DNA of 64,000 nt, taken from contig OX345636.1 in the NCBI GenBank assembly GCA_947044365.1, positions 7,770,001 through 7,834,000 on the forward strand. The letters run 5' to 3'. A program made the position numbers and the translations under genes. The stretch is from Petrosia ficiformis. Lineage: Eukaryota > Porifera > Demospongiae > Haplosclerida > Petrosiidae. This document shows positions 2,206 to 25,537 of the stretch, piece after piece (within the stretch, counting starts at the first letter, position 1; every line of letters begins with the position of its first letter). Under the pieces are notes generated by a model. That model ran no database searches, had not been told where the DNA came from, and saw nothing but the letters and a program-made list of their open reading frames with translations.

Positions 2206-3890
2206 AGGCATAAACAAAAATTTGATATTCACGCCTTCGTTCGCATCATGCATACTTCAAAGCATAAATTAATAAATTAATTATTAGTTATTCAATTAAC
2301 CTTGTAAACCTAATGAGCGTGGGCGTTAGTCTCGATTTCTTTTTTTACTGCAGAATTCAATTCTACATTTCAGAAAAAGTGTTTGTCTAAATATACTTTC
2401 TATCAAATTTGTGTTTAGTTTTTGAGTTATTTGCAAAAGAAGTTTCCGATGTTGCAAACTTTGAAGTGTAATAAAGTCATGAAGAATCATTGTATTGACA
2501 TAGAAATTCAGATATCAAGCTACTGCAAAAATACAATTTACAAAATAGAGAGATTTTTAAAAATAAGTCTTTACTTTTGTTGTAACAATTTATTGAATTT
2601 TCAGATTTCTGACAATGGAATTTATCAGTGGGTTTACATTTTTAGGATAAAAACTCTCTATTACATTTGAGATAGTTTGCTAATGTATCTTGTTTGTACT
2701 TCGTATCTGCGAAATTTACTTTTATTTACCTTTTATTAGAAAGAGTGTTCTTGGATGCGTTGTTGTTCAAGAATCGTCCATTTTATAATAATATTTTTAC
2801 AAAAATGTGTATGTCTATCGGTAATAAAAATGGTATTTACATAAATTTTGCACGTCTATCGGTAGAATAGACTTAGATAATAGTGGTGACGAATTATTAC
2901 ACTTTATTTCTAAATGAACGAATTACTGTGGGAGGAGATTAGAGTTATTATATGCGGTATCCTTGTGATAAGTATATTATAAGGATTATAGAACTTTTTT
3001 GTCAAGACTCTACAACAAAGCGGAAAAAGGTAAAATATAGTACATATAAACACCTAACATTATACAATCAGAGCCTCTGAGAGGACTATATAGACATATA
3101 TTATTATGTAGCCCTTTTGTTTGATGTTGTAATAAGCTGTTCATGGGGGTTGGTGTAAAATTTGCAAGCCCTGTGTTCTGTAATAATAGTAATGCTATGC
3201 TGCTGTAATCATGGATGCCTCTAGAACCTGGAATCCAAAATTTTCTGTGTGTGTATGGGACAACATGCCTCAGACCCCTACATGCATTACACAATCTGCT
3301 CCTAGTCTCATATAACCAGACCCAACCCCTCTGCAATATGATGGGAAAGACATACTGTGTTCACTGAATCAATGTGAGGCGAACACATATATATTTGTTC
3401 AGTATTGATAAATTATGATTACTGTCCAACAGCTTCATCTTTTTTGGATGATTCTTCATGATTTCCTTCTACTTTTGATATTCAATCAGCTTAAAATTCC
3501 TTTTTGAGTATATACATGTACAGCAAAAAAGACATTTTCTTCATCAAAATTGTCACTTTTTATCTCTGACTCTTTAAAGTTCAATAAAATGATTCCCGAA
3601 ATAGTACTTCAAACTACTGCAATAAGACAACAAAAAGATTTATTTAGCAACCCTTTCCATAACATCTATTAAAATTTTTGATTTTCGAAATTTATCTCTG
3701 AGTATATGCTTTCAGAATTGTTCAAGAACCCTTTATTTTATTAATTAACTAAAATTTGCATGTCTAAAATAAATGGTTAAATTTTGTTGTCAATGTCATG
3801 TGACAACAAAATCACATTGTCACATGATTGTGTTGAATTACAAAAAGTATAATTATTATTATTATTGATTAACCTTTTTTCTGAAGAAAA
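2206..3890. other. Upstream region of the transposase/PHD/OTU gene, no gene seen
   Basis: Unique AT-rich DNA. Frames of 82 codons (2422-2670 plus) and 108 codons (3010-3336 minus) have no recognisable domain or splice context. The core promoter of the gene beginning at 3891 should lie here, but I see no confident TATA box close to the start codon. Confidence 0.4.
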
Positions 3891-3953
3891 ATGGGACTAA
3901 CGAAAAAACAGATGAAGCATTTAAATGAAGCTAGACATCAAAAGAAAGAAAAG
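3891..3953 (+). CDS. Exon 1 of the transposase/PHD/OTU gene
   Basis: The start ATG opens 21 codons, very Lys/Arg/His-rich, then a GTACAT donor. Phase 0 at the exit matches all six later exons. This start is chosen because it is the only ATG upstream that links to the phase-0 chain. The 1.9 kb intron after it holds an AT microsatellite and a MITE. Confidence 0.7.
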
Positions 3954-4377
3954 GTACATATGTAATTAAATATTATTCCTATAAAACCAATGTATGTATA
4001 TACATTGTATATATGACATTATATGTTTATATACATATATGAGGGCGGGGTAAAAGGTTTGAATGTTCGAACCTCTGATTGTTTGCTGCACATTTTTAGC
4101 TGAATTTCTACCTTCAAAGCTTTGCCACACTCGCTTTGATATTTTGAATATGTGTACTTCTAGTGAAGAATGTGGGTGTGTTCCTGTAAAGTTGAGGCTG
4201 TGTTGTTGGCTGAATCCAAGTAGAAACAGTGACAGGAACAAGACTAGTGCTTGTTATAAAGCAATAATAGTTGATAAAAATACATGCGAACCTTTGAATA
4301 TTGTTTTTATTGCTTTGAATGTTGTTTTGCAACCTTCGTTCCAGCCCTAATATATATTATATATATATAAATTATTA

Positions 4378-4432
<55 letters not shown>

Positions 4433-7400
4433 ATATATATATTATATATATATATATAATATAACATTGCATGTACATATTAGTTTTTATGTTTGTATGT
4501 ACAGTGTATGAATACAACATAAGGCATGGTAATTTGGACACAAATTTAGTTTGCATATACATGTAGCCAAATTCACACTAGTCGCAAGTACATGTATAAG
4601 TGCAACTCACAGCTGAGATGCTGCTTAGTACATACAGTGTAAGTGCACCTTGTGTAACTTCACCTGTAAAAAAAACTTCAAAGCTTTGCTACCACACCCT
4701 CTTTAATGTGGCAAGGTAATTAGTAGTCTTTTAGTAAAGTAGAAAAGAACTGATGACGAAATAGACAAAGAACCTATACCTTTGAATTTTTGGAAGGGTT
4801 TCCTGCCTCTTGTGGCCAATGGCCGAGGGGTCTATGCAGGCATGCCTGCTAAGCACCTTGGTCATAGAAGGGAGGGGTTTAGAGTCTAACGTTTCTCAAT
4901 AAATACAAGTATAACTCCATCTACACACAAATTTTTGTAGGAGGAATGGTCTGGTCTGCTTAGCCTAATTGTAGTAGTTGTGCCCTGTTACCAACAGTTT
5001 ATCCAATCAAATTATATGTTATGTCAGGATAGAAAATGGTTTCCATGCTTCAAATTTTAAGAAACCTGCTTCTGATATGCACACTAGAGTAGTATCTATA
5101 TACATGTAGTTTTATGTGTAGGAATGACATTGTCATAACTACTGGTAAACAAATTGTACTTCATATTGTGAGCATCATGGCTACTGTTTCCAGGCTTTCA
5201 GGCTGCAGTGAACCCTGCCCACAGTGGCATGGTAATTAGTAGGCCTTTAGTAAAGTTAAACAAGTGTATATAGAGAAAAAAGTATCCCTATGATTGCTTT
5301 ATGGTGTCCAGCATTCAGTAATCATGGCTGACTTTATCATGCCCGAAACACAACAGTCTATTATAGTTATTATTTTGATTATATACTCTGTTTACCTTTT
5401 ATAGAACCTTGTAGAACTTTAAGAATACATTTCAGGTAGAATAGCTAGCTATTAGTTCCAGTGTCTACGTAAGCTACACAGCTTTCTTTCTGCTGGTGTG
5501 TAGAGCTTGATCGCGCGTTCTTTTTCGTTCCACGCCCATTAATTGACCGAGCCCCCGGGAATGATGTAACTTCCTTAACTGCGTATACAACGCATACTCG
5601 CGTAGGTGACACAAGAATATATATATACATGTATAAACATACATCGAACCCGTGGGAAAACAATCATAGGGATGGCCCTACGGGCCATAAAAAATTACCG
5701 ATGATGAAATTTTACTAAACTACAATAATTAAAGACTACATCACATCTCTTTATCCATCTACATGTATATGTATCCCTACTGTGATACTCATAAATACAT
5801 ATGTATTTTATACTAAGTCACTTTATTCTTACAGGAAGTAACTTCGAAAGAGACTCCGAAATCAGTGGATAAACATGTATGTCTATGTGTCATGTGTGAT
5901 GTAACATATTGCATGTATATATTTATATAATATATGATTATATTATATATATACATGTATATATGCACGCAGTAAGTGACACAGAAATGATAATTCAGAG
6001 TCAGAAATAACAGGCGGCCATCTGCCATTATCCGTGCATGTCAGGACAATGACTGAGCAAATTACTGCATGCAAGGACATTATGGCAGTTATGTTTGTAG
6101 AATGTAAATATTCGCAGGACTGTTAATGCCAGGTGTTTCATATGAATCTTGTCACCTCTAGTTCTCACATTTTATAAAATTGTAGATTGTAACTTGATTG
6201 CTTTGCTGGAAAGTTGAGTTGTTAAAAAACAGCCATGGTTGATACAAAAAAGTACATGTACCAAGACAGAAATACAACAAATCTTCGTTGAGATTTGCGT
6301 AATAAGTGCTTTCCTTTCTTTGTAAGCAGCAATTTCATAATTTTCAAGTTAATAATTCAACACATTATGAACATGTAAAATAGCCAGTTTGTAAAACATA
6401 ATTATAATTAGACACAGAAATCTATAATATAGTAACATACATATATACAATGTACAATACATGTACAGGCATTCCACTACTGTTTGGTGTAGTTGTTATT
6501 GTACAAGAATAAAATAAATAAGGATATAGGGGTATCAAAACTGAAAAACACAGAAACAAGATTAGGATAGTACCTTAGCAATGAAATTACACACCACTTC
6601 CACCCTACATACATGTATATACATGTAAGTACTGTATAGCTAGTTTTTTTGCAAGTCCGCTTTTCGTTAACATGTTATTTGCTAGAAACTAACATGTAAG
6701 ATTCATGTTAAACACAAACAAAGATCATAGATACATGTAGATGGTGAGAGAGAAAATAAACTGAGTCGCAAATTTTACATACACTGATAGATCCTTCTTA
6801 AAGACTTTGACTATTTAGAATATTAATATTATAACGAACAAAGTAACAATAGCAACAACTATCTCTTACAGAAATCAACCTGCCTACAGAAACCAGAATG
6901 GTCTATATCATGTGGTACACATGTGGACAGTCTAGAAAATTCTAGATACATGTAAATCCATCCCACATGGTACTAATTGAATGTTCTATATCATGTGGTA
7001 CACATGTGGACAGTCTAGTAGATACATGTTAATCCATCCCACATAGTACTAATTATATAAATAATCATGTCAATATTAATCCAGTCTATACACATAGTTA
7101 CTTACTATGTGTTACTTTTCTAAGCCAGGGTGGCTGCTTTAGTATTTTTGTTTTATGAATTTTATAACCCATTTAGCTGCTGTTTATTTGTTAATCGTTT
7201 CTAAGCCTTTTGCTAATTTTCATGTAATGTATACACTATACAGTCCTGTTGGTTGTAGCGATTGTAGCCCTACTGTACATTTCTTTATGTGCTACATACA
7301 TGTACATGTATATACGGCCATTAATTGACCGAACCCCCTGGAATAACAGAGCTTTAATTAATGTACATACAATGTCATGTACATGTATATGTGCAATAAC

Positions 7401-10400
7401 ATGTATCATGTATATATGTTACACATGCATGCTTTGAAAGTAACCATATAGGGATAGCCCCGTGGTCCATAAAACTACAAATATTCATGTTGTACTGCAC
7501 ATACACTTGAACTACACGTGTACATGTACAATGTACAATGTATAAATATTCATGTGCATGTATACATGTTAGCTACATATACATGTATGTACAATGTACA
7601 AATGTTCATGTAGCTTGTACTGCACGTATATATTTATACATGTACATGTTAGCTACATACATATACGTGTACATACAATATACAATTGTACATGGTCATG
7701 TACATACATGTATCTGCCTGTAAATAATATTGTCATTATGCAATTTGTTGTTGAGCCCGTGCTTTGGTGATTATTCTTTTGGGGGGACTCTTCTTAGAGT
7801 CCCTAAATTTAATACATCAAGCAATTTCTTGATTAATAACATAAATATAGTTCTCTGTATTTTGCTTTATATTTTAATGTACTTTCAGGATCCAGATATT
7901 TGTTTAATGTTTGCACATGTGCAGAAATTGAACATGTGACATTATAATTGAAATTATAATTCCAATATAATGGCTGCGGAGACGTTTCTTGCTCTGTGTT
8001 ACCGGGCTTTCCATACCTGTAGCGTACTGAAGGGATAGTTATAAACAAGATATATAAAGAAAAAAGTATCCCTATGATTGCTTTGTGGTGTCCAGCATTC
8101 AGTAATCATGGCTAACTGATGCCTGAAACACATCAGCCTATTATAGTTATTATTTTGATTATCTACTCTGTTTACCTTTTAAAGAACCTTGTAGAACTTT
8201 AAGAATATATTTCAGGTAGAATAGCTAGCTATTAGTTCCATTTTCTATGTAAGCTACACTGCTTTCTTTCTGCTTATCTGTAGAGCTTGAGCGCGCGTTC
8301 TTTTACGTGCCACGCCCATTAATTGACCGAGCCCCGGGAATGATGTAACTTCCTTAACTACGTATACAACGCATACTCGCGTAAGTGACACAAACATATA
8401 AATATATATATATAGTTCGAACCCGTGGGAAAGCAATCATAGGGATGGCCCTACGGGCCATAAAAAACTGCTATTCTATATTTCCAACTACCTTGTAGGA
8501 TACCCATTCTAAACCAAGTTGCCACTTTTGTTGAGCCACTTTAGAACATTGAGTGAGAACTACATGTACATTAAACTGTTTGATGAGTGATTTATCTGGC
8601 ACAATAGGGCAGTAATTATTATCTTAATGATAGAATACAATGCTGCTAATATGCATGTTACATGACAGTCTTTGTGTCAGTCTTGTGTGGATATTAATTT
8701 AGGAATGTAAAGCAAAACATTAATCGTCGGTAGAGTAAACCACATACATTTTGCACATCGAATTTTTTTTCACATTTATTAATTGTAACATGAATTATTT
8801 TCGATTTACATTGTGTTTTTTCTGTGATACAGACATTAATTAGTGTAGTTGTGTATATATATATATATGTATATATACATGTATATACAGAAGTGTGGAA
8901 ACATTGAGCCAATTACCGGACATTTTGACCTATTTTCACCACTCTTGTCCTGCTCCCCATATACTTTGTATACAGCTCTGTTTCAATTTACCGGACATTC
9001 ACTACTGTGATACTCATAAATACGTTATTTATTTAAGTATTTTATACAAAGTCGCTTTATTCTTACAGGAAGAAACTGTGATTTCGAAATCAGCGGATAA
9101 ACATGTATGTCTATGTGTCATGAGTGATGTAATATATTACATGTATATTTATATAATATATAATATATATGCACACACTATGTGACACAAAAATGTTAAC
9201 TTTCCATTAGCAGTAAGTATTTAATGAATGTACATGTATTTGGTATAGGCGAACGTTTCATAATCCTGGGCTTCAAAATCCTCTTACTTCATCTGTCATC
9301 TTTAACGGATGGCCTGATCCTCCTAGTTATGCAACCATTTTCAATAAACTTGCAGAGAGACTTATACATTCCTATCTGGCTACTATGCAACCCTTCTTGT
9401 TCCAGATTCTTCTGTATAGTTGGAGGTATAAAGAATAAAACACATGCTGTAGTAGTATAGAATATGCTGTTTCTTGTAACCATAACTCACAAAGAAATAA
9501 ACTTGAAAAACTGCTAAATGTAATTTTGATTGTGTGAATTTTTACTCGTGCTGGTTGGACATCATTTAAACAAATGCTCTATAAAATGCAATTCAATTAA
9601 GCACGATACCTAATGCCTTTCAGGAATTGTATTACTTATGACACACCCCTTTGTGAAACAACTGAAACTACCATGCCAAGTTGATATTTTATGCTATAAT
9701 TAATAATAAACTTTTTTTATTTAGAATAATTCAGGAACAACTAAGGAAAAGAAAGAGGTACACATACACACACATGTATACATTCTTGCAGAGTACCTAC
9801 ATTTGTACATTCCATCATGGGGGGGGAGGGAATGATTGAACAAGTGATATTGAAAAACAAGGCCGAAGCAAATCATATGGATTACAGAAGGTCATGGTCG
9901 TTGCTAAATACATGTAGTTAGCTAACGGAGAACAATATGGTGAAATCGCAAACATATTCTTTCATGGACAGGGTGTACGTAATGTATTTCAAATTCTTGC
10001 ACCATTGCATTCATGTGGAAATCATTCACAAAAGAAGTATTGCCATAGAATATAATTCTGCAGTGTTCACTGGTGGGGTATATGACCACTAGTTTAAGAG
10101 ATAATTATTGGTTATTCAGTATAGTAAGCCCAACACATGCCCATGACTGCATTTATTTACACTGAGCCATACCTTTCTTTTTGCTTGTTTGTTGTTGCAT
10201 TATCTTATTTGCAACATAATTAATCTTCCGAATTTTGGAATATTACTGTCTTTCTCGGCTTGCAGAGAACAGAACAGACAACAATAACACGAAACTTCCT
10301 TTGCAAGTCTGAATTTAAGTGTACTCGTCAGAATTACTGACCTGGAATATTCAAAAAACAAAGAGCTTTTGTGTGATATGAGCTGTTACAAACAAGTTAT

Positions 10401-13400
10401 CAAATCTGTACATGTACTTTATCTACATACATGTATTTACATTTACAAGTTTACGCTTTTATAGGGTGATGTTTCTGCAATTATATGTAACAGAGACAAT
10501 AAACATGTAAGTGTATCTTTTTACATATACATACATGTATTATGTGTAGGAAGCAATCAAGTCTCCTTTTATTTTCATTAATACTTGATGTTCACCATGA
10601 CCTCAGAAATGTGTTTAACTGATCATCTTACCTGCACCAATTTCATATAATTATCCTTCTTGTTCTTTTTTGTGTATGTCGATTTTTGATCCCTGAACAG
10701 TATTATTTTTTACCAAATTCGCTAAATTTTTCCTTCCTGTAATTTTCACGGCATAAAGTATATAGTGGAACCTCTCTATTCAGGACTCTCTGGAATAAGT
10801 ACACACCCGTATTAATGACATTTAGACGTCCTTTATTATACAACTTCACCCCTGAAATGAGGACAACCTCTATAATTATGATTACTTGGTCCCAATGGTG
10901 TGAAGGTTCCATTGCATACATGTACATGTACGTATTTGTATAATTATAACATACAATGCATATATGTATATAACACTAATATGCATGAAAACTGAGCTAG
11001 AATGTGACAGAAAGATTGAGCCAGTGACCATGCTGTAACCTCAGTTGTATTTGATTTCAAGTGCTTCTACAGTGTTGTGAGGGTTTGCTAATTTTGTAGT
11101 TATACATAATATATATAGCACCTACACATAATTTTGTTGTAGTGAATTTTAAAATTTTACTGTACTTCTTATGCTACATACCAGATCCATATCTCATATG
11201 TAGGGGAGGGTCTGGCTACACAAGACTATTAATACTTTGATACTAATGCTCTTCACTTCATTTGTATAGAAAGATGGTATTCCTTCACCGTTAGAAGAGA
11301 CTTTATCAGAGGTGTGTCTATCTGTTATATACATGTAATTATACATGCAGGTTTATTTTACCCTACAGGCAGTATTTCAAGATGAAGAAGAGGATCGTGA
11401 TACATCGTTTGTAAGTGAAAACACAGATTCACTGTACCTCCCAACACCACAAAGAAATTGGGTAAAAAATATCAAGCCAATAACACTGCCAAAAAAGCTT
11501 TTTGTTGGAAGCCTTACTGAAGTAGATACATTTATTAAAATGACGAACGAAATTCGCCACTGTGTAACACCTGGTTGTAAAGGACAATTAGTTCCTTTGT
11601 CATTTGATACAAAGGGCTTGGGGGGTGCAGTTAAGGTTTATTATGGATGTGATGGCTGTGATATTTCAACTGTGTGTTTTGAAAGCTCACTGAAAAGTGA
11701 GTTACTTACCAGTAGCGAAATAGGTGCAGCCATTCAAGTAGGTTTTATTGTATCGGGCTGTATGCATGCAACCTACTGTAAAGTACTAAAGCTGTCCCTT
11801 GGACTTGATGCCGTCCGTATGGATAAATTTTACTCAACCGTCACAAGAATGTACCCTGTAGTGAAGGAGATGGTTGACGAGATGTGTGAGGAAGCTAAAG
11901 AAGAGATGAAGACAATGGATGAACACACTCTTGGCTCGTGGAAGCAGGCAGTAACAAGTGCAGACGCAGCGTGGATGACACGTGGTTACCACTCCAAAAA
12001 TGGCACATTCAGTGTTCGTAACTACTATAATGGAGCATTGCTGTATTACAAACACTTGTGCCAACGTGGTAGTGACAATATAGTAGAAGGAGAGCTATAT
12101 AAAGGAACATCTAAATCCATGGAAGGATTTGCAGCGCGAGAGGTTATGCATCGAGCTAGAGAGGAAGGGATGAAACTCGCTGTCCATTGGCAAGATTCAG
12201 ATTCATCTTCTGCAAAAGCAGTAGCGGAATGCTTTCCTGAATGCAAAATTATGATCTGTGGTGGCCATGCCGGCAAAAATCACTTAAAAGCTCTGGAAAA
12301 TTACTCCAAGATGAAGGCACCTTCGATAGATTTGATTAGAAAGCATGAAGACAGGTTCCCTCTAATAAATGGAGCACGCTGCCACTGTCCTAATCGCCAC
12401 AGCCAAGGTTGTGGTTGTATTACTGATGCTTTTATCATGAGAGCACGTAATAACTTTTCTTACATTCTGACAGACTCTAAGTCTGCTGAAGAATTTGCGA
12501 AAAGGCTGAGAGTTCTACCCAGACATGTCCGTGACGAGCACGAGTGGGAAGTGATGGAAGAGGGAGCAGAGCCAACAACAGAACACTGTGATTTTCATCC
12601 TCTCAAAGTGTGTAGCTGTGGCAATTGTGCCGATAAGGAAAACTTTGTGTGTGAAGGAAAAGATTACACTACGCGGTACGGGCTCACGTGTGCGTTTCAC
12701 TCTCTCCTTTATGAAATTGAGTGTGACTATAGAGCCTCAATGGCTGACAGCCTCGTTCATCCCGAGCTGAAAAGAGGCCACTCCAATTGGTTGGAAGCCT
12801 CGCACAACGTATTCATCAGGTTCAGGTCAAAGGACATCAGCCTGGAGAGGCTTCACTACGAGGTTTCCACTAATTTGGCCCTGTTGCAGTCAAACATGAC
12901 TTACATGTACGAGAAACGAGGTCCAAAGTATCACTGGATACCGGACCTGTATAAACGTCTGAATCTTCCAGTGTATGAAGGTATCCAAGAGGCTGTGACG
13001 ACAGCCAACATAAAAAGAAGACAGCAGTTGGGCAGAGCAAAACAAGAGAAGGTTAAGAAAAGGAGAATACAGCTGTTGAAGTTACGAGTGAGAGATGCGA
13101 CAGAGCGTCGTGAGTGGTCAAAGAAACACGGAGGTGACACGTATGGCGAGACCAAAGATACGGATTCCAAAGCCCCCAAGAAGAGTAAAGGTGGTGCCAC
13201 ACAAATAAACATATTGTGCAAGTGTGGATCAACATCTCACAGCCGGTCCACCCACAGGGACTGTCCTCTTAACACCAAGTACAGTAACGTATCGAGTATC
13301 GACCATTCAGAGGACTTGGTTTGTGACAAAGGAGATGTTGTTTACACTGCCAAATATCAATGTTCTGATGATGCAAATACACATACGGTGTTAAGTGACG

Positions 13401-13981
13401 ACGAATCGACCTTTAGTGACTCGAGCCTCGAAGGAGACTATCTCGAGGACAGTATGATATATGACAGCGATGACGAAACACAATGTACTTGTGGTGCTGA
13501 AGGCAGAGGCTGCAGAGCTCACAAGAAAGCTTGCCCCTTGAATCCTCATTTGCTGTATCAAGCGAAACCTGCTGCTTCGACGCCTGTACGTCCTCCAAAT
13601 TCGACCCCTTTCAAAGAAAGGAAACGAAGCAGTCTTAAAGTAACCCCGTTTCCCACAGCCAAGAAGAGCAAACTCTCAACTCCGTGCAGTACCACACAGA
13701 GTGCGAGAGTACTGGCAGAATCCTTCAGTCAAGACTCTTCTTCTCCCGAAGAGGACCTATACTGCTTTTGCCGAGGAAGAGATAAAGGAAATATGGTGGA
13801 ATGTGATGGATGTAATTGCACATTTCATTGGTTTCACTTTGAGTGTGTGGGGATCACTGAAGCTCCCGAAGGTAAATGGTACTGTGATGACTGTTCACAA
13901 GAACTCAATATCGATGACTTGTGTGTCGAATCAACTCCTGTACGTCCTCCTAATTCGACCCCTTTTAATGACAGGAAATGA
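3891..13981 (+). CDS. Mutator-like DDE transposase with zinc knuckles and PHD finger; multi-exon gene up to an internal TGA
   Basis: Seven exons join in phase 0: 3891-3953, 5835-5876, 9069-9104, 9725-9757, 10465-10506, 11270-11311 and 11369 onward. Each has an AG acceptor and GT donor. The first six give an 86-residue Lys/Glu-rich leader starting MGLTKKQMKHLNEAR. The large exon resembles Mutator-like transposases of animals: an N-terminal Cys cluster (HCVTPGCKG, YYGCDGC), then acidic residues that could form a DDE triad: DAAW (codon at 11963), DSDSS (12194) and WLEASH (12794). GGHAGKNH follows the second Asp. Two knuckle-like motifs start near 13216 (CKCGSTSHSRSTHRDCPLN) and 13484. A PHD finger (C4HC3) lies at 13763-13906. 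Translation to the TGA at 13979-13981 gives 956 residues. It could be an active transposase or a domesticated chromatin protein. The domain reading is by eye; the exon chain is strongly supported because every junction keeps frame. Confidence 0.82.
4372..4466. repeat. AT microsatellite
   Basis: Almost uninterrupted (TA)n with one TACATG interruption, inside intron 1 of the transposase/PHD/OTU gene. The Ile/Tyr-only frame read across it on the minus strand is an artefact. Confidence 0.95.
5271..5693. mobile_element. MITE family A, full copy 1
   Basis: It starts near tatagagaaaaaag followed by tatccctatgattg and ends caatcatagggatg followed by gccctacgggccat. The inner ends are inverted copies of each other (tatccctatgattg versus caatcatagggat), giving a 420-bp non-coding element. 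Other copies are at 8051-8466, 17812-17873, 20192-20276 and 31221-31565. The 72-codon minus frame inside it recurs in copy 2 and is probably not a gene. Confidence 0.75.
5835..5876 (+). CDS. Exon 2 of the transposase/PHD/OTU gene (14 codons)
   Basis: TTCTTACAG acceptor, 42 nt encoding EVTSKETPKSVDKH, then GTATGT donor, phase 0 at both ends. Exon 3 at 9069 and its flanks are a duplicate of this exon. Confidence 0.65.
5877..6890. other. Intron 2, first part: no feature seen
   Basis: AT-rich sequence with scattered TACATG palindromes. I find no exon or mobile-element end here. Confidence 0.4.
6895..7060. repeat. Two-copy tandem duplication of about 95 bp
   Basis: The stretch tatatcatgtggtacacatg then tggacagtctag ... 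atccatcccacat(g/a)(g/t)tactaatt occurs twice in direct order. The first copy carries a short extra gaaaattcta step. It lies inside intron 2. Confidence 0.85.
8051..8466. mobile_element. MITE family A, full copy 2
   Basis: Same ends as the copy at 5271-5693: tatccctatgattg at 8067 and caatcatagggatg near 8434. The interior matches through cccattaattgaccgagcc and acgtatacaacgcatactcg. It stands about 600 bp upstream of exon 3, as copy 1 stands about 140 bp upstream of exon 2. Confidence 0.75.
9069..9104 (+). CDS. Exon 3 of the transposase/PHD/OTU gene (12 codons), duplicate of exon 2
   Basis: TTCTTACAG acceptor, EETVISKSADKH, GTATGT donor. About 60 bp upstream and 60 bp downstream also match the surroundings of exon 2 (tactgtgatactcataaata upstream, ctatgtgtcatg downstream). 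This exon therefore arose by local duplication, and because both copies are phase 0 the reading frame survives. Confidence 0.65.
9223..9441 (+). CDS. Possible coding fragment in intron 3, unidentified
   Basis: The frame through AAT CCT GGG CTT at 9262 stays open for about 70 codons without an ATG and reads like protein (GLQNPLTSSVIFNGWPDPPS, then SYATIFNKLAERLIHSYLAT) before TAA. The composition is less biased than the flanks. I do not recognise the family; it could be a relic of an inserted gene or chance. Confidence 0.25.
9725..9757 (+). CDS. Exon 4 of the transposase/PHD/OTU gene (11 codons)
   Basis: TTTATTTAG acceptor, NNSGTTKEKKE, GTACAC donor, phase 0. Lys/Glu-rich like its neighbours. 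Confidence 0.6.
10465..10506 (+). CDS. Exon 5 of the transposase/PHD/OTU gene (14 codons)
   Basis: TTTTATAG acceptor, GDVSAIICNRDNKH, GTAAGT donor, phase 0. It ends in the same DNKH/ADKH/VDKH pattern as exons 2 and 3, so these short exons may be an old repeat family. Confidence 0.6.
10763..10918. mobile_element. Short MITE with Tc1/mariner/pogo-like ends
   Basis: Left end agtggaacctctctattcag resembles pogo/Tigger termini. The right end ggtgtgaaggttccattgca carries the inverse AGGTTCCA. About 155 bp, non-coding, within intron 5. Target duplications are not clear. Confidence 0.4.
11270..11311 (+). CDS. Exon 6 of the transposase/PHD/OTU gene (14 codons)
   Basis: TTTGTATAG acceptor, KDGIPSPLEETLSE, GTGTGT donor, phase 0. 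A 57-bp intron separates it from the large exon, whose acceptor is CCCTACAG at 11368. Confidence 0.65.
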
Positions 13982-14287
13982 AGCAGTCTTAAAGTATCCC
14001 CGTCTCCCACAGCCAAGAAGAGCAAACTCTCAACTGCGTGCAGTACCACACAGAGTGCGAGAGTACTGGCCAAATCCTTCAGTCCAGACTCTTCTTCTCC
14101 CGAAGAGGACCTATACTGCATCTGCCGAGGAAGAGATGAAGGGAATATGGTGGAATGTGACGGACAAAATTGCACGTGGTTTCACTTTGAGTGTGTGGGA
14201 ATCACTGAAGCTCCCGAAGGTAAATGGTACTGCGATGACTGTTCACAAGAGCTCAGTATCGACGATTCGTGTGTAGAATGCATAGGC
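13580..14287 (+). repeat. 354-bp in-frame tandem duplication carrying a PHD finger
   Basis: Copy 1 starts at 13580 (acgcctgtacgtcctcc) and copy 2 at 13934 (actcctgtacgtcctcc), exactly 118 codons apart. Each encodes a Pro/Ser/Lys linker and a PHD finger. Copy 2 lacks 6 bp in the finger (CDGQNCTWFH against CDGCNCTFHWFH) and carries TGA where copy 1 has CGA. Confidence 0.92.
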
Positions 14288-14890
14288 GAAAGCCCAGCCA
14301 CAGTAACTGTGACCGGCCCACTGCCCACTGAAGAGTGGAAAAGTGCTGCCAGAGATGTTATTGCTAAATTGTCTCGTTGTGAACTAACTGCTCGGTCTCA
14401 ACGAGTCCAGAAAATTCCCTGTAGAGATATCGAGCCCCACATTCGTGATAGAGTTCGGGGCGATGACAACTGCCTATTCAGAGCTTTATCTAAAGAAGTT
14501 ACAGGAACCGAATCTAACCACCAAGCTGTTCGTCAAGCAATTGTTAATTTCATGACACACAAAGATAATGCTTACCGTTTCTGTAAGGACTGCTTTGCAG
14601 GTGACACTCTTGAGGCAAACCTTTATGAGCCTATTAAGAGTATGACCGGTTACATCAAGGAAAAGAAGCTGGATCAGCGTGGATGGGGAACTGACCGCGA
14701 GATTAGAGCTTTTGCTACCCTGTGTCAGATTGATGTTTGTACATACTCTGACAATGGGTCCAGTCGTGCTTGGCTGAAGTTTTCCCCCCTCTTTTGTAAC
14801 GAGCACTGCATGCCCAAGTCAGACTACAAGATCTACCTATTCCACACAGAGGAAAGGAACCACTACGATCGTGTGGTTCCTTCTGTATAA
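13982..14890 (+). CDS. In-frame continuation: second PHD finger and OTU cysteine protease domain
   Basis: After the TGA at 13979 the same frame remains open for 302 codons to TAA at 14888. It encodes the end of the duplicated linker, PHD finger 2 (14116-14253, starting LYCICRG) and an OTU-family deubiquitinase domain. The OTU signature is GDDNCLFRAL with the candidate nucleophile Cys at 14471-14473. The candidate catalytic His is in NHYDRV at 14861. OTU proteases cleave ubiquitin from substrates. Seen with the upstream exons, the ancestral product was probably one protein of about 1,258 residues. Today it would need stop readthrough, an internal start (ATG at 14147 is in frame) or skipping of the stop; otherwise this part is a pseudogene tail. 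Coding quality after the stop looks undamaged. Confidence 0.8.
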   Translation, partial: SSLKVSPSPTAKKSKLSTACSTTQSARVLAKSFSPDSSSPEEDLYCICRGRDEGNMVECDGQNCTWFHFECVGITEAPEGKWYCDDCSQELSIDDSCVECIGESPATVTVTGPLPTEEWKSAARDVIAKLSRCELTARSQRVQKIPCRDIEPHIRDRVRGDDNCLFRALSKEVTGTESNHQAVRQAIVNFMTHKDNAYRFCKDCFAGDTLEANLYEPIKSMTGYIKEKKLDQRGWGTDREIRAFATLCQIDVCTYSDNGSSRAWLKFSPLFCNEHCMPKSDYKIYLFHTEERNHYDRVVPSV

Positions 14891-15600
14891 AATCACAGAG
14901 TACATGTAATCGGTACGAACCACTTACACATAGCAGATGTGGTGGGAACAGTGAGTACATAACTCATGTACCACGTGTGGGTGGCATGTATGTATTCATT
15001 TGGACCAGTCACATGTATGTACATGTACACGTGTGGGTGACATGTAACGCAATGTGTATGTGCTCAGTGTTGGTGTCGTGTATCACGTGTGGGTGGCGTG
15101 TATACCGACACTGATTGATTGTGTAGCTTTTACAGACTGAAGACTGAAGTATAGAGTAAAAAAGAAGGAATGTATTTTTTTGTTGAGTTACAACAGTATT
15201 TACAATTAATCTAGTGTATAATTTAAACTAACCCCTTTGCCCTTGCTGGCCGAGGGCAATGGGGATATTATTTCTCTCCATCTCTCTCTTGCTCTCTTTG
15301 CTATATGTTTCAAACATCTTCATGTGTACCAATGACTGGCTATACGTAATATAGTCACGATGCTTTTGACATACGGTTTTGTTTGAAACATGTAGTAGGA
15401 TAGAGTAGCAAGGGAGAGACATAGTTTTTTTTGTTGTTGTTATTGCACAAAGTTTCACTTGCGTATCTGTTGTGTTTGTGTATTGTTCTAAGGTTGTTGT
15501 TAGGCTTTTATAAATCTACATGTACATGTATGTGTCATATCAAGACCAAGATGTCTGGTTTAGGGCTGCAAGTACACACCCATCTTTGATGGTTTAAGAC
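14891..15600. other. Downstream region of the transposase/PHD/OTU gene, no gene seen
   Basis: A short run of gtgtgggtg(g/a)c(a/g)tgta repeats lies at 14975-15110. The rest is unique AT-rich DNA. No clear AATAAA could be tied to the gene. Confidence 0.4.
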
Positions 15601-15621
15601 GTGTGCTTGTGTGCTCTTTCC

Positions 15622-15950
15622 AGACTTCCTGTACGCACCCCGTCATTAGACGGGTTTACAAGTAGCGTACATGGATCAAGACCACAAGACCAAAACTTCC
15701 TGTACGCACCCCATCGTTTAGATGGGTTTACAAGTAGCGTACAAGGATCAAGACCACAAGACCAAGACTTCCTGTACGCACCCCATCATTAGACGGGTTT
15801 ACAAGTAGCGTACATGGATCAAGACCACAAGACCAAGACTTCCTGTACGCACCCCGTCATTACACGGGTTTACAAGTAGCGTACATGGATCAAGATCAAG
15901 ACTTCCTGTATGCACCCCATCGTTTAGATGGGTTTACAAGTAGCGTACAG
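15622..15950. repeat. Tandem repeat of about 72 bp, five copies, each able to form a hairpin
   Basis: Each unit holds cctgtacgcacccc, a short loop, gggtttacaagtagcgtaca, then a spacer gatcaagaccacaagaccaa. TGTACGC pairs with GCGTACA, and the inner CCCGTC or CCCATC pairs with GACGGG or GATGGG. In copies 1, 2 and 5 the inner arms change together. Copy 5 also loses part of the spacer. Confidence 0.9.
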
Positions 15951-16179
15951 GAATGACAATGGTGGGAATGACAATCCCTACCCTACTGTGAACCACTCAA
16001 CGTGTGTTCACAAGGGATTGTGCATCTCTTACTCTGTCGTGATCCATCTTGTATGGTGAGCTTCCTAGTGCAATCCTGATGGTGAGCAGCCAGCTCGCAT
16101 GTCAATGAGACATGTGTATGAGACGCTGGTTTAGGGATAAGCAGAGTGAGAGAGGGTGGCAGGGAGGGGGGCTTGCGAC

Positions 16180-16420
16180 ACAGTGACACCTTCTCGCGAT
16201 GGTGCAGGCCGTCACTCTCTTTGCAGACATACATGTATGCAGGGTATGGATACAGTGAGCCGATTTTGTGATTTTCACATTTTAGTTTCTTGTGTCTTGC
16301 TTCTTGCATCGTTGGACAACGCCCTGCTGGAATGGCTGTTTCCAGTGGAAACAGCCTTTCCAGCAGGGTCTTTCCACACCACTGCATAGTCTACAAAGAG
16401 TGTGCTGAGATCACTGTAAA
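16180..16420. repeat. Dispersed repeat containing a 47-nt hairpin
   Basis: From gtgcaggcc to ctacaaagag it matches 38960-39145. The hairpin at 16322-16368 has 22-nt arms with a single mismatch around an AGT loop. The second copy lacks the loop and second arm. Confidence 0.8.
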
Positions 16421-16456
16421 CTGTTGTGGGGCTACTGTTAGTTCTCACATCAGTTT

Positions 16457-16624
16457 AGTAGTGTTGTTTTAGTTAAATATAACTACATCCCCTTTCAGTA
16501 GTACTACCTAGCGTATAACTAAAGCCATATGGCCCATAATGGGCACTTTTTGAAGTTAGTTTGCGGCATACTGTAACTGTAACAAAGAAGTAGTCATTAT
16601 CGTCATACTAAAACAGCACTACTG
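16457..16624. mobile_element. Small MITE with 17-bp terminal inverted repeats
   Basis: Left end agtagtgttgttttagt, right end actaaaacagcactact: inverted with one mismatch. The interior carries the tagttaactataac motif also seen near 17660-17760, 31080-31170, 38840-38875, 44160-44260 and 60915-61165, which are probably relatives. Confidence 0.65.
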
Positions 16625-17035
16625 ATTTAAGCAAGCCTCACTCTTACTCTGTATTTTACATTGAGGGACTAAATAATTGTTGTTCACCTTTTTTTAATTG
16701 AATATATGTAGGTGAAGAACAAACAAGCAAGTGGACACACAGAAAACTATGGTATTGTATTATTTGTATAATTGTAAATAGGCTAATTATGAAAAAGTGC
16801 ATATTACTAGCCTACAGATGATATGTACAGTATGTGTGTAAGTGTACTCAAGCCTACAATTGATATGTACGTGTACTGTATAGTGTGTACACCTGATATG
16901 TACATGTATGTGTATGCTGTACAGTGCGTACTTAAGCCGACAATTAATATGTACATGTACTCGAGCCTACACTTGACATGTACATGTATGTGTGTAGTAA
17001 TCCATAACAGTAAGTAATAGTAATAGTAATCTACT

Positions 17036-17240
17036 AGGTTATAGTAATAGTAATATATTACATTGACCTCAGAGGTAATAGTAATATATTGTAATTGACC
17101 CCATGTCTGTAATATGTATTTAATGATCTTATGACGTTAAACTATACACTATAGTACATGTAAGGGTATTAAGTTACAGTATAATCATGCATTAACCTTA
17201 TGATATTAACTATAGTATATTAACCTTATAATATTAAACT
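17036..17240. repeat. Degenerate repeat rich in taatagtaata
   Basis: Several loose copies of ggtaatagtaatatatt and of the ttaaccttatgatattaaacta phrase, which recurs at 28520, 32940 and 39320. Non-coding. Confidence 0.5.
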
Positions 17241-17434
17241 ATACGTAATGGTTATAAGATGCCAGGCTAGGTGGCCATATGTCAGTATGTACATGTACGT
17301 GTATGAAAACATGTTCATGTATGTGTATTGTGTCGCGCATTTTATTTTAATTCATAAAATCATAGTAAATTTGGTTAGTTGTAGATATTTGAATAATAAT
17401 TATTATTTTACATGTATTTTTTTGTGTTTTTTAG

Positions 17435-17514
17435 AGTTAGCAACTTACAAAGGCTCCTATTCTTCATCGACCAGCAGGAATATATATATGAGATACACAT
17501 CTGATGAATACAAG
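17435..17514 (+). CDS. Candidate isolated exon, unidentified family (copy 1)
   Basis: TTTTTTAG acceptor and GTAAAT donor enclose an open frame ending RYTSDEYK. A diverged copy sits near 30832-30909, with the same downstream sequence and MITE A remnant in both. I do not recognise the protein. It may be an exon of a gene that was duplicated and then decayed. Confidence 0.35.
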
Positions 17515-17811
17515 GTAAATACAAGGTAAAAGACCACACCCCTAATTAAATTTGTTATTCTACATATACATGTACATGTATGTTGACTGGATGTGTGATA
17601 ATTGATATAGTTATAGTGATCGTAATTAATGTAGTGTATAACAATAGATGTTTGGTTTTATTAGTCTTGGTTGTTTTAGTTGACTATAACTATATCTAAA
17701 ACCCCTTTTATTAGTCTGGGTGCTATGACTTTTAGTTAACTCAACTATAACTAAATTACAATTATATATTGTAAAAATGTTACTGTAATTAACGCAACTG
17801 AAACAAGGTAT

Positions 17812-17873
17812 GTAGAGAAAAAAGTATTCCTATGACTGCTTTGTGGTGTCCAGCATTCAGTAATCATGGCTGA
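17812..17873. mobile_element. MITE family A fragment, left end only
   Basis: Matches the first 60 bp of the element (gagaaaaaagtattcctatg then ctttgtggtgtccagcattc) and stops exactly where HSP70-like sequence begins. Confidence 0.7.
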
Positions 17874-17875
17874 GT

Positions 17876-18276
17876 TTGGGAATCGAGCTAGCTAATGGCA
17901 AAATGAGTACTCTTATAAATCGTAATACTACTATACCATATTCTCACTCACGAGTTTACAAAAATAACGAAGACTATCAGACTGAAGCTGTTATAGAAGT
18001 CTCTGAGGGAGAGGAGAAAATAGCAAAGAGTAATCGTTTGTTGGGAAGATTCACATTGCCTGGTTTGCCTCCAAGATTACGTGGCCAGGTTGAGATCCCA
18101 GTTGCTTTTTCACTGGATGCAAATGGTGTTTTGGAAGTGAGCGCAACTGTTAGTGGTGAAGCTGGATCCACAAAGAAGCTAGTTATTAAAAAGACAAAGG
18201 TCTTCTCACTGATGATGAGATTAAAAGTAAGAAAAAATTGTTGGCTAGCAGGAAAAAAAATGCAAAACTCAACTAG
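17876..18276 (+). pseudogene. HSP70 fragment: substrate-binding domain with a frameshift
   Basis: The frame opening LGIELANGKMSTLI and running through RGQVEIPVAFSLDANGVLEV and SATVSGEAG is the beta-sandwich substrate-binding domain of HSP70 chaperones. After KKTK near 18198 the match moves by one base (LLTDDEIKSKKKLLASRK) and stops at TAG 18274-18276, so one base appears lost. The ATPase domain and C-terminal lid are absent; the sequence starts abruptly at a MITE edge. With no start codon of its own and a frameshift it is best read as a gene fragment. It might once have belonged to one of the expanded HSP70-like families of sponges. Confidence 0.8.
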
Positions 18277-18855
18277 TTCTTTTAATGTATTGATTTGTGA
18301 ATGTAAAAATATATTATAATAGGTAACAGTTATTGAAGTATAAAAATTACAATTGATATCACCTTGGTAATGGTTGTAAGAATGACTTTCTTTAAAGGCA
18401 GTGTCTTTGGTATGTCTTGTGGAATTACTTCACTTGTTAGCCAAACCTCTTGTTAATAATCACAATCCACATCTTTATGCTATGGTTATGATTTAAGTAT
18501 TGCCATGGTAACCAACCAAAGGCAATAGTTTACTCGGTAAGTAAATGAAACATAAACAAATACCTATCTGCACATTTTAATTTGACTCTATACATTATTG
18601 AACAAATCTTCCCATGTTAACACCTAATATACCCTTATTATCACTACATGCTGTGCATTTTTGAACTTTTATTAGACATAGTAAGACCTCATGTTAAATA
18701 TGTAAACAAAAAAAAAAGGGTATTTCTTGAATATTATAATTGTGATGTTGTGAAATTTTCACTACTGCATGTACATTGCCAAAAGTGTAGATGCATACAG
18801 TAATACATTTATAAACTAAGGGACAGAAACTTATTGTTGTATAATTACTATATAG

Positions 18856-18924
18856 ATTGTGGAGGCTCCCTGATGATCTACTGTGTGTAACATTAGCACA
18901 GTTTGAAGAATGTCTCAATACCTG
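18856..18924 (+). CDS. Candidate exon, unidentified (joins 19052)
   Basis: TATATAG acceptor, open frame LWRLPDDLLCVTLAQF continuing EECLNT, and a GTAAGT donor. It joins in frame to the exon at 19052-19157 through a split Cys codon. A shortened copy lies at about 35850-35880. The family is unknown to me. Confidence 0.4.
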
Positions 18925-19051
18925 GTAAGTTTAACAAGCATATACACATGTACATACTTACACATTAGGGTTAACATGTGGTTCTGCAGACTAATTTATG
19001 TAAGGTCAACATGAGGTCTTTTCAAGTGTTTACTTAATCTTGTAACCACAG

Positions 19052-19157
19052 CGGTACAGGATGGATGAGGGATAGAAGAGAGCCAGAAAACATTGCATGT
19101 GCATGTGCAAACTTTACTGACACACACACAGAATTTGTGTGTCCAGATACTACGTTT
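19052..19157 (+). CDS. Candidate exon, unidentified, Cys-containing
   Basis: ACCACAG acceptor; frame GTGWMRDRREPENIACACA then NFTDTHTEFVCPDTTF; GTAAGA donor. The counterpart at 36018-36170 is broken by a (CA)n expansion and by a shift that turns the Cys-rich part into Met/Cys/Lys. The two copies together suggest a real ancestral exon. Confidence 0.4.
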
Positions 19158-19338
19158 GTAAGAAGTATGATTGATATATGGGAAGTGTTGCATTGTCTTT
19201 TTTTTGTATGTATATCAATCTTATTTCTCAGAAATGTACATAGTATGTATATGTATGTATGTTGTGTTATGTTGTGTATGTTGTGTATGTATGTTATGTA
19301 CATGCATGCATGTTAACAATATTGTGTGAGCAGTTTTT

Positions 19339-19431
19339 ATGATGAATTGGCTCAGTATAATTGCTGAGCACCTTAGTACGAGGCAACTAATCTGGGAGTG
19401 TACTCAGTGTAGTGAAATCTCGACCTTAGTT

Positions 19432-19470
<39 letters not shown>
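19339..19470. repeat. Dispersed repeat ending in an AT microsatellite
   Basis: From gctgagcaccttagtacg through gaaatctcgaccttagtttg to (TA)n. The same unit occurs inverted at 44895-44975 inside an intron of the nuclease-like gene. Confidence 0.8.
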
Positions 19471-19473
<3 letters not shown>

Positions 19474-19548
19474 GTGGGACAATCATTGGAATACTTTATG
19501 TCTTGTTTGTTCCATCAATTAGTATATTATTTTTTGCTTTTCTCATAG

Positions 19549-19643
19549 TTTCCAATCCAGCTCTGTTTGTGTCAAAGGGTGATACTTACATTAATGTAAC
19601 CAATACAACAAGAAGACCTTAGGTTGACTTACAGATATCCAGG
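19549..19643 (+). pseudogene. Candidate exon with a one-base deletion (copy 1)
   Basis: TTTTCTCATAG acceptor; frame SNPALFVSKGDTYINVTN, then a one-base loss relative to the copy at 37869-37964 puts TAG in frame. The remaining sequence still encodes LRLTY in the shifted frame and a GTTAG donor follows. Unidentified family. Confidence 0.45.
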
Positions 19644-19649
19644 TTAGCC

Positions 19650-20190
19650 TCTGGGTGTACTTAAGATATTGCTATGGGGCTAAGTGTTAGCTGTTGATAT
19701 TGCTATTCACACACTTGTAAGGATAATCTCAACCCAGAAGAGGAATGGAGGTGGACTTTAAATTTATTCACATTAATAAAATTTTGAGAATTAACCATGG
19801 ATGTCATCAGTAGCATTTTTGAAGCCCTTTGATATTTTTCAACCACATTTCTAGTTTTCTACGCAAGACAGTCTACTAAATGTGCTTTAAGTTTGTGCAA
19901 AAATCCAAAAGTTATAAGCAATCCAACTTACAAAGACGCTAAGTGTGGGTGTTGGTACTGGCCAACGCACTTTCAAACACTCGCCTTGTTGCTTTCCTCC
20001 CACTAGCAATCCATGATTTTGGTATCTATAACATTGTTAGAAGGTCCTCTGTCTAGTAAGTTAAAGGTTTGTGTTGTGTAAAATATAAAAGTTATGAAGG
20101 AAAATATTTAGTATGTACATTCGTGAATTAATTGGTAATTTTGAATTTGATCTAAAACCACCAAACTGCCAATTAAACAAGTGTATATAC
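19650..20190. other. Repeat-derived spacer
   Basis: Parts match 41090-41560 (cactttcaaacactcgcctt, agaaggtcctctgtct, caccaaactgccaattaaa). No gene seen. Confidence 0.5.
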
Positions 20191-20191
20191 T

Positions 20192-20276
20192 ATATAGAGA
20201 AAAAAGTATCCCTATGATTGCTTTATGGTGTCCAGCATTCAGTAATCATGGCTGACTTTATCATGCCTGAAACACT
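20192..20276. mobile_element. MITE family A fragment, left end
   Basis: Same left end as the full copies (tatagagaaaaaag then tatccctatgattgctttat), truncated after catgcctgaaacac. Confidence 0.65.
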
Positions 20277-20481
20277 TTGGAAATTTTGTCATGTTATTCT
20301 GGGTTTATTGGTAACTTGATCAGAAAAAGACCAAGACTAAAAGTGGTAATTATTGCCAAACTAAAATAACACTAGTGTCATGTAGTGTATAGCCATAAAT
20401 GTAGTACATTTTCCTGAGGTCAAGATGAACGTGAATGACCTTATGATACATGTACATTTGTTTTATTCATTTACATTGTAG

Positions 20482-20536
20482 ATACTAGAAATTGATGAAG
20501 TTCCAATGGCTGGACGAAAGAAAAGAAGAATTAGTG
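20482..20536 (+). CDS. Candidate exon ILEIDEVPMAGRKKRRISG, copy 1
   Basis: ACATTGTAG acceptor, 55 nt, GTATGT donor. Basic stretch GRKKRR. A direct duplicate at 28333-28386 is one base shorter and therefore frameshifted. About 100 bp upstream and 90 bp downstream are duplicated as well. Confidence 0.4.
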
Positions 20537-20724
20537 GTATGTAATACATGTACATGTAACTACATGTATTATTTACATGTGTGTTGACAATAATCCATGC
20601 ATGCAAGCAAGTACATGTACATGGGAGCTCTGCCTCAAGATACTCCCATAGAGTATTAAAGACTCTTGGTGGGCTTTGGGGAGACTAGTCTATGTACTAC
20701 GGTCCTGCATGAGGGAAGTACATA

Positions 20725-21428
20725 CAGTAGAGGTCATAAAGAAGTTAACGTTTCGTAATCGTTCTACGATCGTTTTACGGCTCCATTCGTTGCAAATTAC
20801 AGTTGCAATCGTTTTAAAAAACGAATCTGATCGTTTGCATTAATTAATAATTAACTTGGGCGTTTCTGTTTTTCCTAAAAATATGTGGGGGCGGATCGTT
20901 TAACATCTACGTAATTCTTTTCACCTCCATAACTCTCGTATTTTATGAGATTGAAGATTCTAAATTTCTTTGCTGGACATAAGAGTTGTTAACAAAGCCA
21001 ATGATGTCAAACTTATGCTTTGTTATCACCAGGAAGAGTCCAAGGCGAGCGCTTGAAAGTATAGTAGTACCATGGGCAACGCCCACCTCTGTACAACCTT
21101 GTATAACTTATGCATTTTAAACAGCAATGACTTTTAACTCACATATCTGGACAGAAGATCTTTTAAGAAAGCCACAGATACCAAACTCATGCTCCGTTAG
21201 CTGCAAGAAAGCAGCAAGGTGAGCGTTTGAAAGTGTAAGTAGTCACCGGCAACGTCCATATTTGGCATTCATGTGATTTCTTGTTGAAACGTGCATGCGC
21301 AAAGATTGCTTTAACGTTTTTAAAAACGATTATAATCGTAAAAACGATTCTAAATCGTAAAAACGGAACGAATCAGAGAATGATTGTAGAACGATTACGA
21401 AACGTTAACTTTTTTATTGCATCTACTG
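20725..21428. mobile_element. TA-flanked element with mariner-like inverted ends
   Basis: Left end CAGTAGAGGTCATAAAGAAG and right end CTTTTTTATTGCATCTACTG are inverted, with TA immediately outside on both sides. The inner terminal repeat gttaacgtttcgtaatcg is perfect. The ends contain many inverted copies of the word ACGATT/AATCGT. At 704 bp with no transposase frame it is a non-autonomous DNA element. Confidence 0.75.
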
Positions 21429-21608
21429 TACCTCCACTATGCTGACCAGAGTTTATGGATTATTATCCATGTGACTATAATATTTACATGTATATCTACT
21501 ATGGATGGAAGAGCTAATGGCTTCATTGCCTCGCCACCCGTCAGTACATGTACATAGTAGTGTCCATCTCTGGACATTAGTTTGACAGGCTACTTTCGGA
21601 GTAGAGTC

Positions 21609-22520: not shown

Positions 22521-22597
22521 GGAGAGACTTAGAAAAAAAAGAAAATGACCTGTTCTGATTGTCTGCTGTGTTTTTTAGACTGAGGTACGGCACATGG

Positions 22598-22620
22598 ACT
22601 CCATGTATTTATATTGAGAG
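22598..22620 (-). promoter_or_regulatory. Possible promoter of the gag-like retroelement
   Basis: On the minus strand a TATA-like stretch (ATATAAATAC) lies about 90 bp upstream of ATG 22520, inside the GC-rich element. Confidence 0.3.
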
Positions 22621-22699
22621 GGGGCTCCGCCTCCTATATGGCCATCTTAGCTAGCTAACAAAGCTGGCCGCCTGGGGATCCCCCGTTAACTCTGCTTAA

Positions 22700-23600: not shown

Positions 23601-23603
23601 TAG

Positions 23604-24654: not shown

Positions 24655-24742
24655 ACAGAGTTTGGAGTACCACGTGGAAAATCAGCTAGTTTGATAGCTA
24701 CTCTTGGTGATCCTTTAAAGATAAGAAGTTGGCAAATAGCAG
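24655..24742 (+). pseudogene. Dynein heavy chain fragment: start of AAA5
   Basis: Frame KLTEFGVPRGKSASLI then ATLGDPLKIRSWQIAG, ending at a GTACAA donor. It matches the conserved stretch before AAA5 of axonemal dynein heavy chains (family pattern: small residues, TLGDP, KIR, W, IAG). The acceptor side is unclear. The microtubule-binding tip and second coiled coil expected between this piece and the one at 23604 are missing. Confidence 0.75.
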
Positions 24743-25190: not shown

Positions 25191-25194
25191 TGTA

Positions 25195-25450: not shown

Positions 25451-25537
25451 CTCTTTCCTTTCCTTATGAAATAGCCTTACATTCAATTATGTATATTGTA
25501 CATACAATATACTGTAACAAATACATGATATTATCAA

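Follow-up and report, generated by a model that had tools for sequence, protein, structure and literature searches.

A probable very large Mutator-type transposon in the sponge Petrosia ficiformis, with PHD and OTU domains in its transposase gene

The gene at 11369-14887 of the window, by which we mean the whole 64,000-nucleotide stretch of the Petrosia ficiformis genome analyzed here (C1:7770001-7834000), probably encodes the transposase of a very large DNA transposon of the Mutator superfamily that is young and present in many copies. We put the probability of this reading at about 0.7. It draws on a predicted DDE/RNase H core near ISCth4, with zinc knuckles, PHD fingers and an OTU domain in one frame of sister copies, and on a left terminus that recurs in the genome, lies 1.6 kb upstream of exon 1 and keeps a fixed offset from the gene. 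Copies elsewhere track the window in order over tens of kilobases, one of them (copy F) in shortened form, and a host fragment of an axonemal dynein heavy chain gene (DNAH1) has been amplified along with the unit. The copy number, the open frames of sister copies and the PF20700 matches of two related proteins, P0073 and P0071, also argue for it.

Table 1. Features of the window, in window coordinates
Feature	Coordinates	Strand	Details
Left terminus of the mobile unit	2296..2343	+	TTAA, then CCTTGTAAACCTAATGAGCG...; flanking DNA to its left unrelated
Part of the unit followed in order, with gaps, by copy A	2296..43252	+	Copy A: C1, left end 16823596, minus strand
Micro-exon 1	3891..3953	+	63 nt; MGLTKKQMKHLNEARHQKKEK
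Micro-exon 2	5835..5876	+	42 nt
Micro-exon 3	9069..9104	+	36 nt; like exon 2 and its flank
Micro-exon 4	9725..9757	+	33 nt
Micro-exon 5	10465..10506	+	42 nt
Micro-exon 6	11270..11311	+	42 nt, then 11369 onward
Large exon, window copy	11369..13981	+	Transposase core, knuckles, PHD 1; ends at TGA 13979-13981
Predicted catalytic core	11963..12796	+	D199 (11963-11965), D276 (12194-12196), E476 (12794-12796); 45-sequence alignment, structure model
Zinc knuckle 1	13216..13264	+	CxC...H...C; CKCGSTSHSRSTHRDC
Zinc knuckle 2	13484..13534	+	CxC...H...C; CTCGAEGRGCRAHKKAC
PHD finger 1	13763..13894	+	PF00628 24.5 bits, cut-off 24
PHD finger 2	14117..14242	+	3' of the stop in the window copy; PF23011 36.6 bits, PF00628 26
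OTU domain	14456..14866	+	3' of the stop in the window copy; PF02338 25.6 bits, cut-off 23.3
HSP70 gene fragment	17864..18316	+	PF00012 94.1 bits
DNAH1 fragment	23467..23818	+	Intron and partial exon; 93.2% to C2:4210150-4210749
Stretch in common with copy E	47158..54385	+	95.7-97.4%; copy E: C1, 9.77-9.79 Mb

Domains and exons of the transposase gene

Within 11369-14887 lie the transposase core and a pair of zinc knuckles, followed by a duplicated PHD region and an OTU domain. In the window copy, an in-frame TGA interrupts the gene ahead of PHD2 and OTU. The large frame begins at 11339, is closed by this stop (13979-13981) and continues in register over 13982-14887, so this copy codes for one PHD finger and no OTU domain. 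The initial annotation had proposed a chain of seven exons, and its coordinates, AG/GT borders and phase hold, but 11369-14890 is not a single open exon. Likewise, the proposed fusion of a transposase with chromatin-reading and putative deubiquitinating domains applies to the family, as seen in sister copies, and not to the window copy. The latter's product would be at most a protein ending after the first PHD finger, and sister copies would be needed for the rest.

The candidate DDE triad of a Mutator-like core, as first proposed, is supported as D199/D276/E476 by the alignment of 45 sequences and by a structure model. In the predicted model, D199 lies on strand 194-202, D276 just past strand 270-275 and E476 on helix 473-482, and C297 and H300 sit between D276 and E476. 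Modelling predicts an RNase H-type DDE transposase fold for the core, closest to that of ISCth4 and with the triad in place, which would give it the DDE triad in an RNase H fold by which the Mutator superfamily is recognized. The Foldseek match has an E of 1.7e-6 yet low TM-scores (TMq 0.20).

A profile search, one of the checks suggested in the initial annotation, matched PHD and OTU models, but at E<=1 no Mutator, MULE or integrase model matched the window protein. PF10551 matched 40 other places in the genome, with the window gene absent among them. Our own scan of eight related proteins found the Mutator profile PF20700 above cut-off in P0073 (62.9 bits) and P0071 (49.9 bits) and no match in P0010 and P0060, although both are listed with PF20700. 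The same scan found OTU in P0007 and P0086 (below cut-off in P0004) and Ulp1 in P0028. Precomputed domains among 120 listed of 128 related proteins include PHD in 30, OTU in 6, Ulp1 (PF02902) in 7 and PF20700 in 8; the two named relatives of the window protein are from Halichondria panicea, at 47-49% identity. The absence of a Mutator Pfam match in the window protein, P0010 and P0060 without PF20700 and the TMq of 0.20 are counted against the transposon reading.

Both of the CxC...H...C knuckles described earlier are present and are echoed in the consensus of the 45 aligned sequences. The PHD fingers and OTU domain also pass their Pfam cut-offs, the PHD in both halves of the frame, with the reservation that PHD2 and OTU lie beyond the stop in the window copy. 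The double PHD reflects a tandem duplication: a ~355-bp segment is present twice, at 13577-13931 and 13931-14279, with 89.9% identity. The closest solved chains to PHD 2 are ING/YNG PHD fingers (YNG2, ING3/4). At the two ends of the PF02338 match are the motifs GDDNC (Cys 14471-14473) and NHYD (His 14861-14863), so that the match holds the catalytic Cys and His motifs of OTU cysteine proteases and such an activity is predicted. Among solved chains, the OTU domain has weak matches to OTUD3 (E 8e-4) and OTUD1 (E 6e-3).

The six micro-exons all have lengths divisible by 3 and AG/GT borders, and they are in phase; their joining to the large exon is plausible on these sequence grounds. With thresholds set post hoc from the exons themselves, the sense strand of 3954-11368 is enriched in micro-exon-like segments beyond chance: we counted 11, whereas 60 first-order random sequences have 2.7 on average (10 at most) and the antisense strand has 2. 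Relative to the window, copy A keeps exons 1, 2, 4, 5 and 6 unchanged, and its exon 3 differs by a 6-nt in-frame indel. Substitutions between the two fall at 28 of 5236 intron positions and 0 of 258 aligned exon positions, and because 1.4 would be expected in the exons, the latter count alone is not significant. Exon 1 has copies at 37 places in the genome; among the 20 that were read, none has lost the ATG or the G that follows the exon, and the frame is open in 15, shifted in four and broken by a stop in one. Codon changes in exon 1 (38 replacement, 18 silent) give no clear coding signature. We dropped both this substitution pattern and the 0-of-258 count as proof of coding, since they are too weak.

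The spread of tiny exons over 7.5 kb had been taken to favor a host gene. This argument fails because the exon-bearing region sits inside a repeated mobile unit: the sparse micro-exons are a feature of the mobile element and no sign of a host gene. Many introns and the host-type PHD and OTU domains would suit a host gene whose core was domesticated from a transposase, but the tens of copies, up to 99.96% identical and with differing flanks, and the interruption of the window copy make this very improbable. For the window locus it is contradicted by copy number, unrelated flanks and the fixed offset from the left end.

Recurrent left end and extent of the unit

In the searched genome (191 Mb, 29 contigs), the transposase part matched 61 places, of which seven, counting the window, are at 100%, and the PHD2-OTU part matched 131 places, eight of them at 99-100% with the window included. 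Among these eight near-identical copies, the window copy alone has the stop; the other seven have an open frame of 1181-1183 codons. Relative to the window, dN/dS in the PHD2-OTU half is 0.26-0.57 in 12 of 12 diverged copies, which indicates constraint on this half and is counted for the transposase reading. A search for terminal inverted repeats (TIRs) and copy number had also been suggested; the gene is indeed multi-copy, but a TIR was not found.

A 401-bp probe (2260-2660) gave 41 matches, starting at query 34-40 in 17 and at query 66-77 in about 11. Of 22 left flanks read, 14 have the exact terminus CCTTGTAAACC and 8 a related one (3-4 mismatches), and the DNA to the left of the terminus is unrelated among all 22. 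Exon 1 starts 1.6 kb inside this left end (2296), which recurs ~40 times.

Offsets were counted with 40 of the 41 left-end matches (one second piece of a match was dropped), 42 of 48 rows for a 41.3-kb probe, the best 22 of 131 OTU matches and the best 6 of 17 DNAH1 matches. Exon 1 lies downstream on the same strand at 28 of the 40 left ends, 23 of those at 1505-1581 bp, and is without a match at 12. With the best 22 of 131 OTU matches, OTU is found 8.1-14.8 kb downstream of 12 left ends and is absent within 30 kb at 28; these two shortfalls, 12/40 and 28/40, are counted against the transposon reading. The 41.3-kb probe matches 6.6-39.5 kb downstream, on the same strand, at 14 of 40 left ends. 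Opposite-strand controls gave 0/37 for exon 1, 0/22 for OTU, 0/6 for DNAH1 and 1/42 for the 41.3-kb probe.

No right end of the unit and no 8-11 bp target duplication were found in the sequence examined. An inverted copy of the left 200 bp does not occur within the window, and a search with exact inverted 15-mers gave no partner for a left end. Flank matches of 8-mer size occur only in copies D, E and F; the window and copy A have no match of at least 9. A one-mismatch terminus variant (TTTT in the middle) is present at 15 places, two of them opposite a left end (~86 and ~117 kb); we took it for another repeat. The failure to find a right end, TIR or 8-11 bp duplication is counted against the transposon reading, as are the shared TTAA|CC ends, which would fit a TTAA-targeting transposase too. 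TTAA targeting is a trait of piggyBac.

We weighed whether the Mutator gene is a passenger in a large unit mobilized by another enzyme, either a TTAA-targeting or a rolling-circle transposase. TTAA precedes CC in 9 of the 14 exact left termini, the conservation of one terminus beside a variable far side is what one-ended movement predicts, and an inverted terminus was not found (in the window, or by exact 15-mers against left ends). However, the Mutator gene is the recurrent coding feature beside the terminus, and among the part of the ORFs screened, the shared part contains no other transposase gene beyond a hAT dimerisation fragment (41930-42139). On balance we hold a passenger role to be rather improbable.

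By blastn, the window matches copy A at 97-99% over 2293-7054, 8999-18129 and 19137-41712, and further at 86.6% over 41713-41930 and 90% over 42911-43252. Copies A and B are 99.964% identical across the 27,865 bp compared. In the shortened copy F, the left end connects to matches scattered across 32.7-43.6 kb, a pattern resembling an internal deletion. At 43.6-47.2 kb there are three versions (window, D/E and A/F) after a common stretch, and past ~43.6 kb an ATG comes next in the window and D/E; to judge from these alignments, a common upstream region may stand ahead of different cargo genes. Seven relatives were found for a 290-aa ORF at 45225, in which Pfam identifies no domain. The probe 59500-60100 was dropped as a unit marker because its matches form separate clusters too.

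These comparisons also bear on whether the gene could belong to a compact Mutator-type element (~2.3-17 kb) within a larger repeat family spread otherwise, moving with the small unit only. Copies diverge past 43.6 kb, and a 71-bp tandem repeat at 15622-15949 recalls Rehavkus, in which a minisatellite is described as preceding the 3' TIR (PMC6446971), although no TIR was identified after the repeat in the window. However, 24 of 30 loci go on matching beyond 16,000, and for this reason an element end at ~16 kb after the repeat was rejected. Shortened copies pair the left end with sequence from 32.7-43.6 kb, and the strand bias of the 41.3-kb probe (14/40 against 1/42) also speaks against a compact element, which we consider unlikely.

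Captured host DNA

The DNAH1 fragment aligns to C2:4210150-4210749 over 353 columns, intron included, and the match breaks off inside the exon. This locus is the probable donor; in the genome search it matches at 89% and is not near any listed left end. Six copies of the fragment at 98-99% (the best 6 of 17 matches) each have a left end at a distance of 20.4-22.2 kb, and two more places match at 80-81%. In a search of solved chains, DNAH1 is the best match for 23467-23818 and also for 53940-54380 (minus strand). The window further contains an HSP70 gene fragment (Table 1), and 18130-19136 is missing from copies A and B.

Pack-MULEs likewise carry host gene fragments with intron sequence inside a multi-copy element, and the DNAH1 intron and partial exon, at 93.2%, is a host gene fragment captured as DNA in the same sense. 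In a Pack-MULE the fragment is flanked by two TIRs, whereas here the left terminus alone is seen, and those reported are at most 7 kb long (PMC6431247). One survey describes none in 100 animal reference genomes and argues that Ssk-FB4 of fly populations is a Pack-MULE (PMC8277862).

Proposed mechanism and known relatives

We propose that the transposase would bind the element ends and then cut and join through D199/D276/E476. The ING-like PHD fingers could anchor the complex on active chromatin; they retain the Tyr, Met and Trp of what we take, from ING proteins, to be the H3K4-methyl pocket. The OTU domain might strip ubiquitin from the transposase, or from chromatin or repair factors at the cut, and host gene pieces may be taken up as DNA in Pack-MULE fashion. 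PHD and OTU may serve to target or protect the element's own insertion, as the initial annotation had suggested.

With the Mutator superfamily (MULEs, PF20700), the unit shares the predicted RNase H-type DDE core, a CxxH between the second D and E, a zinc-binding stretch ahead of E and relatives above the PF20700 cut-off. It differs in that a TIR and an 8-11 bp duplication were not found here and in its size of at least 40 kb. Mutator-superfamily TIRs range from 14 to 500 bp and are absent in non-TIR MULEs. Arthropod MULEs are given as 1.4-10.0 kb (PMC13359780). Rehavkus, compared by description alone, shares a PHD finger on a Mutator-like transposase and a minisatellite in the element, and differs in the OTU domain and in its 3' TIR, which is not seen here; its known hosts are listed as insects and annelids (PMC6446971).

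Ginger1 transposases are reported to carry an OTU or Ulp1 domain, and sometimes a PHD, at the C-terminus (PMC2836005). Their core, however, is Gypsy-integrase-like, whereas the window protein has no integrase match and ISCth4 as nearest fold, and their lengths are 2.6-7.1 kb (Table 1 of PMC2836005). The same authors report that Mutator elements from hydra, lancelet and plants carry Ulp1, and they proposed a role in ubiquitin removal for OTU and Ulp1 during transposition (PMC2836005). PHD, Ulp1 and OTU on transposases are therefore already in print, and the protein is a new combination within a known kind; the unusual parts of the element are its size and its captured host DNA.

Giant cargo-carrying elements are known in eukaryotes from Teratorn, described as a piggyBac/herpesvirus fusion in fish, and from Starships, described as tyrosine recombinase elements in fungi. 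In the open-licence literature searched, we found no giant element of Mutator type from a sponge or any other animal, and an animal Mutator-type element of at least 40 kb with captured host DNA would be beyond the published sizes found there. We can tentatively picture, as a possibility short of probable, a 40-100 kb animal Mutator-type transposon that is still moving, has its own histone reader and deubiquitinase, takes up host DNA from DNAH1 and HSP70, and exchanges the cargo genes that follow a common upstream region. Such an element would play in animals, with different enzymes, the part that Starships play in fungi.

For cut-and-paste transposons of eukaryotes, efficiency is described as falling above ~6 kb of cargo (PMC6431247). 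If our reading is true, a recently amplified Mutator-type unit of at least 40 kb is a natural exception to this limit. The PHD-OTU tail offers a testable reason, in that chromatin anchoring and ubiquitin removal may aid the transposition of long elements. The unit would also be an animal case of host gene fragments captured and multiplied, with the probable donor locus at hand.

Tandem repetition in other copies of the unit

Downstream of copy B of the mobile element, a probe taken from about 41.3 kb of the window recurs four times at a spacing of ~17.5 kb (L042/L044 region; C2:5363167-5416366), as if part of the unit were tandemly repeated there. On a smaller scale, a ~205-bp sequence forms a tandem array in copy A (42489-42887; L039-L048) and in copy F (L054/L072), and resembles a cargo-gene exon that has been repeated.

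Fragments and repeats

Features in the window and one left-end fragment elsewhere
Feature	Position	Strand	Remarks
First DNAH1-like fragment	23467-23818	+	
Second DNAH1-like fragment	53940-54380	minus	PF12781, 68.5 bits; DNAH1 best PDB match
hAT dimerisation fragment	41930-42139	minus	PF05699, 33.8 bits
Near-perfect hairpin	16322-16368		common to those copies extending that far
Dispersed repeat	5257-5694, 8042-8467, 31215-31576		mutual identity 84-90%
Left-end fragment L052	C10:3380400-3383600		first 175 bp only, plus 61-bp repeat
Open frame, 290 aa	45225-46094	+	seven relatives

The two DNAH1-like fragments are oppositely oriented, and the second sits at the margin of the sequence that copy E has in common with the window. 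The hAT fragment is likely a nested element. The dispersed repeat occupies introns of the transposase gene and a site further right. In L052, the 61-bp repeat derives from the inner part of the left-end piece. Two diverged copies (L031, L032) retain 84-90% identity around 15962-16695, yet their protein halves only 63-71%.

The 290-residue open frame

A Pfam search with this frame gave no domain match. By eye, its GPD and E-Y-K motifs look nuclease-like. Because two of its relatives (P0122, P0124) apparently come from the same genomes as the transposase relatives P0003 and P0006, the two genes may be co-travelling.
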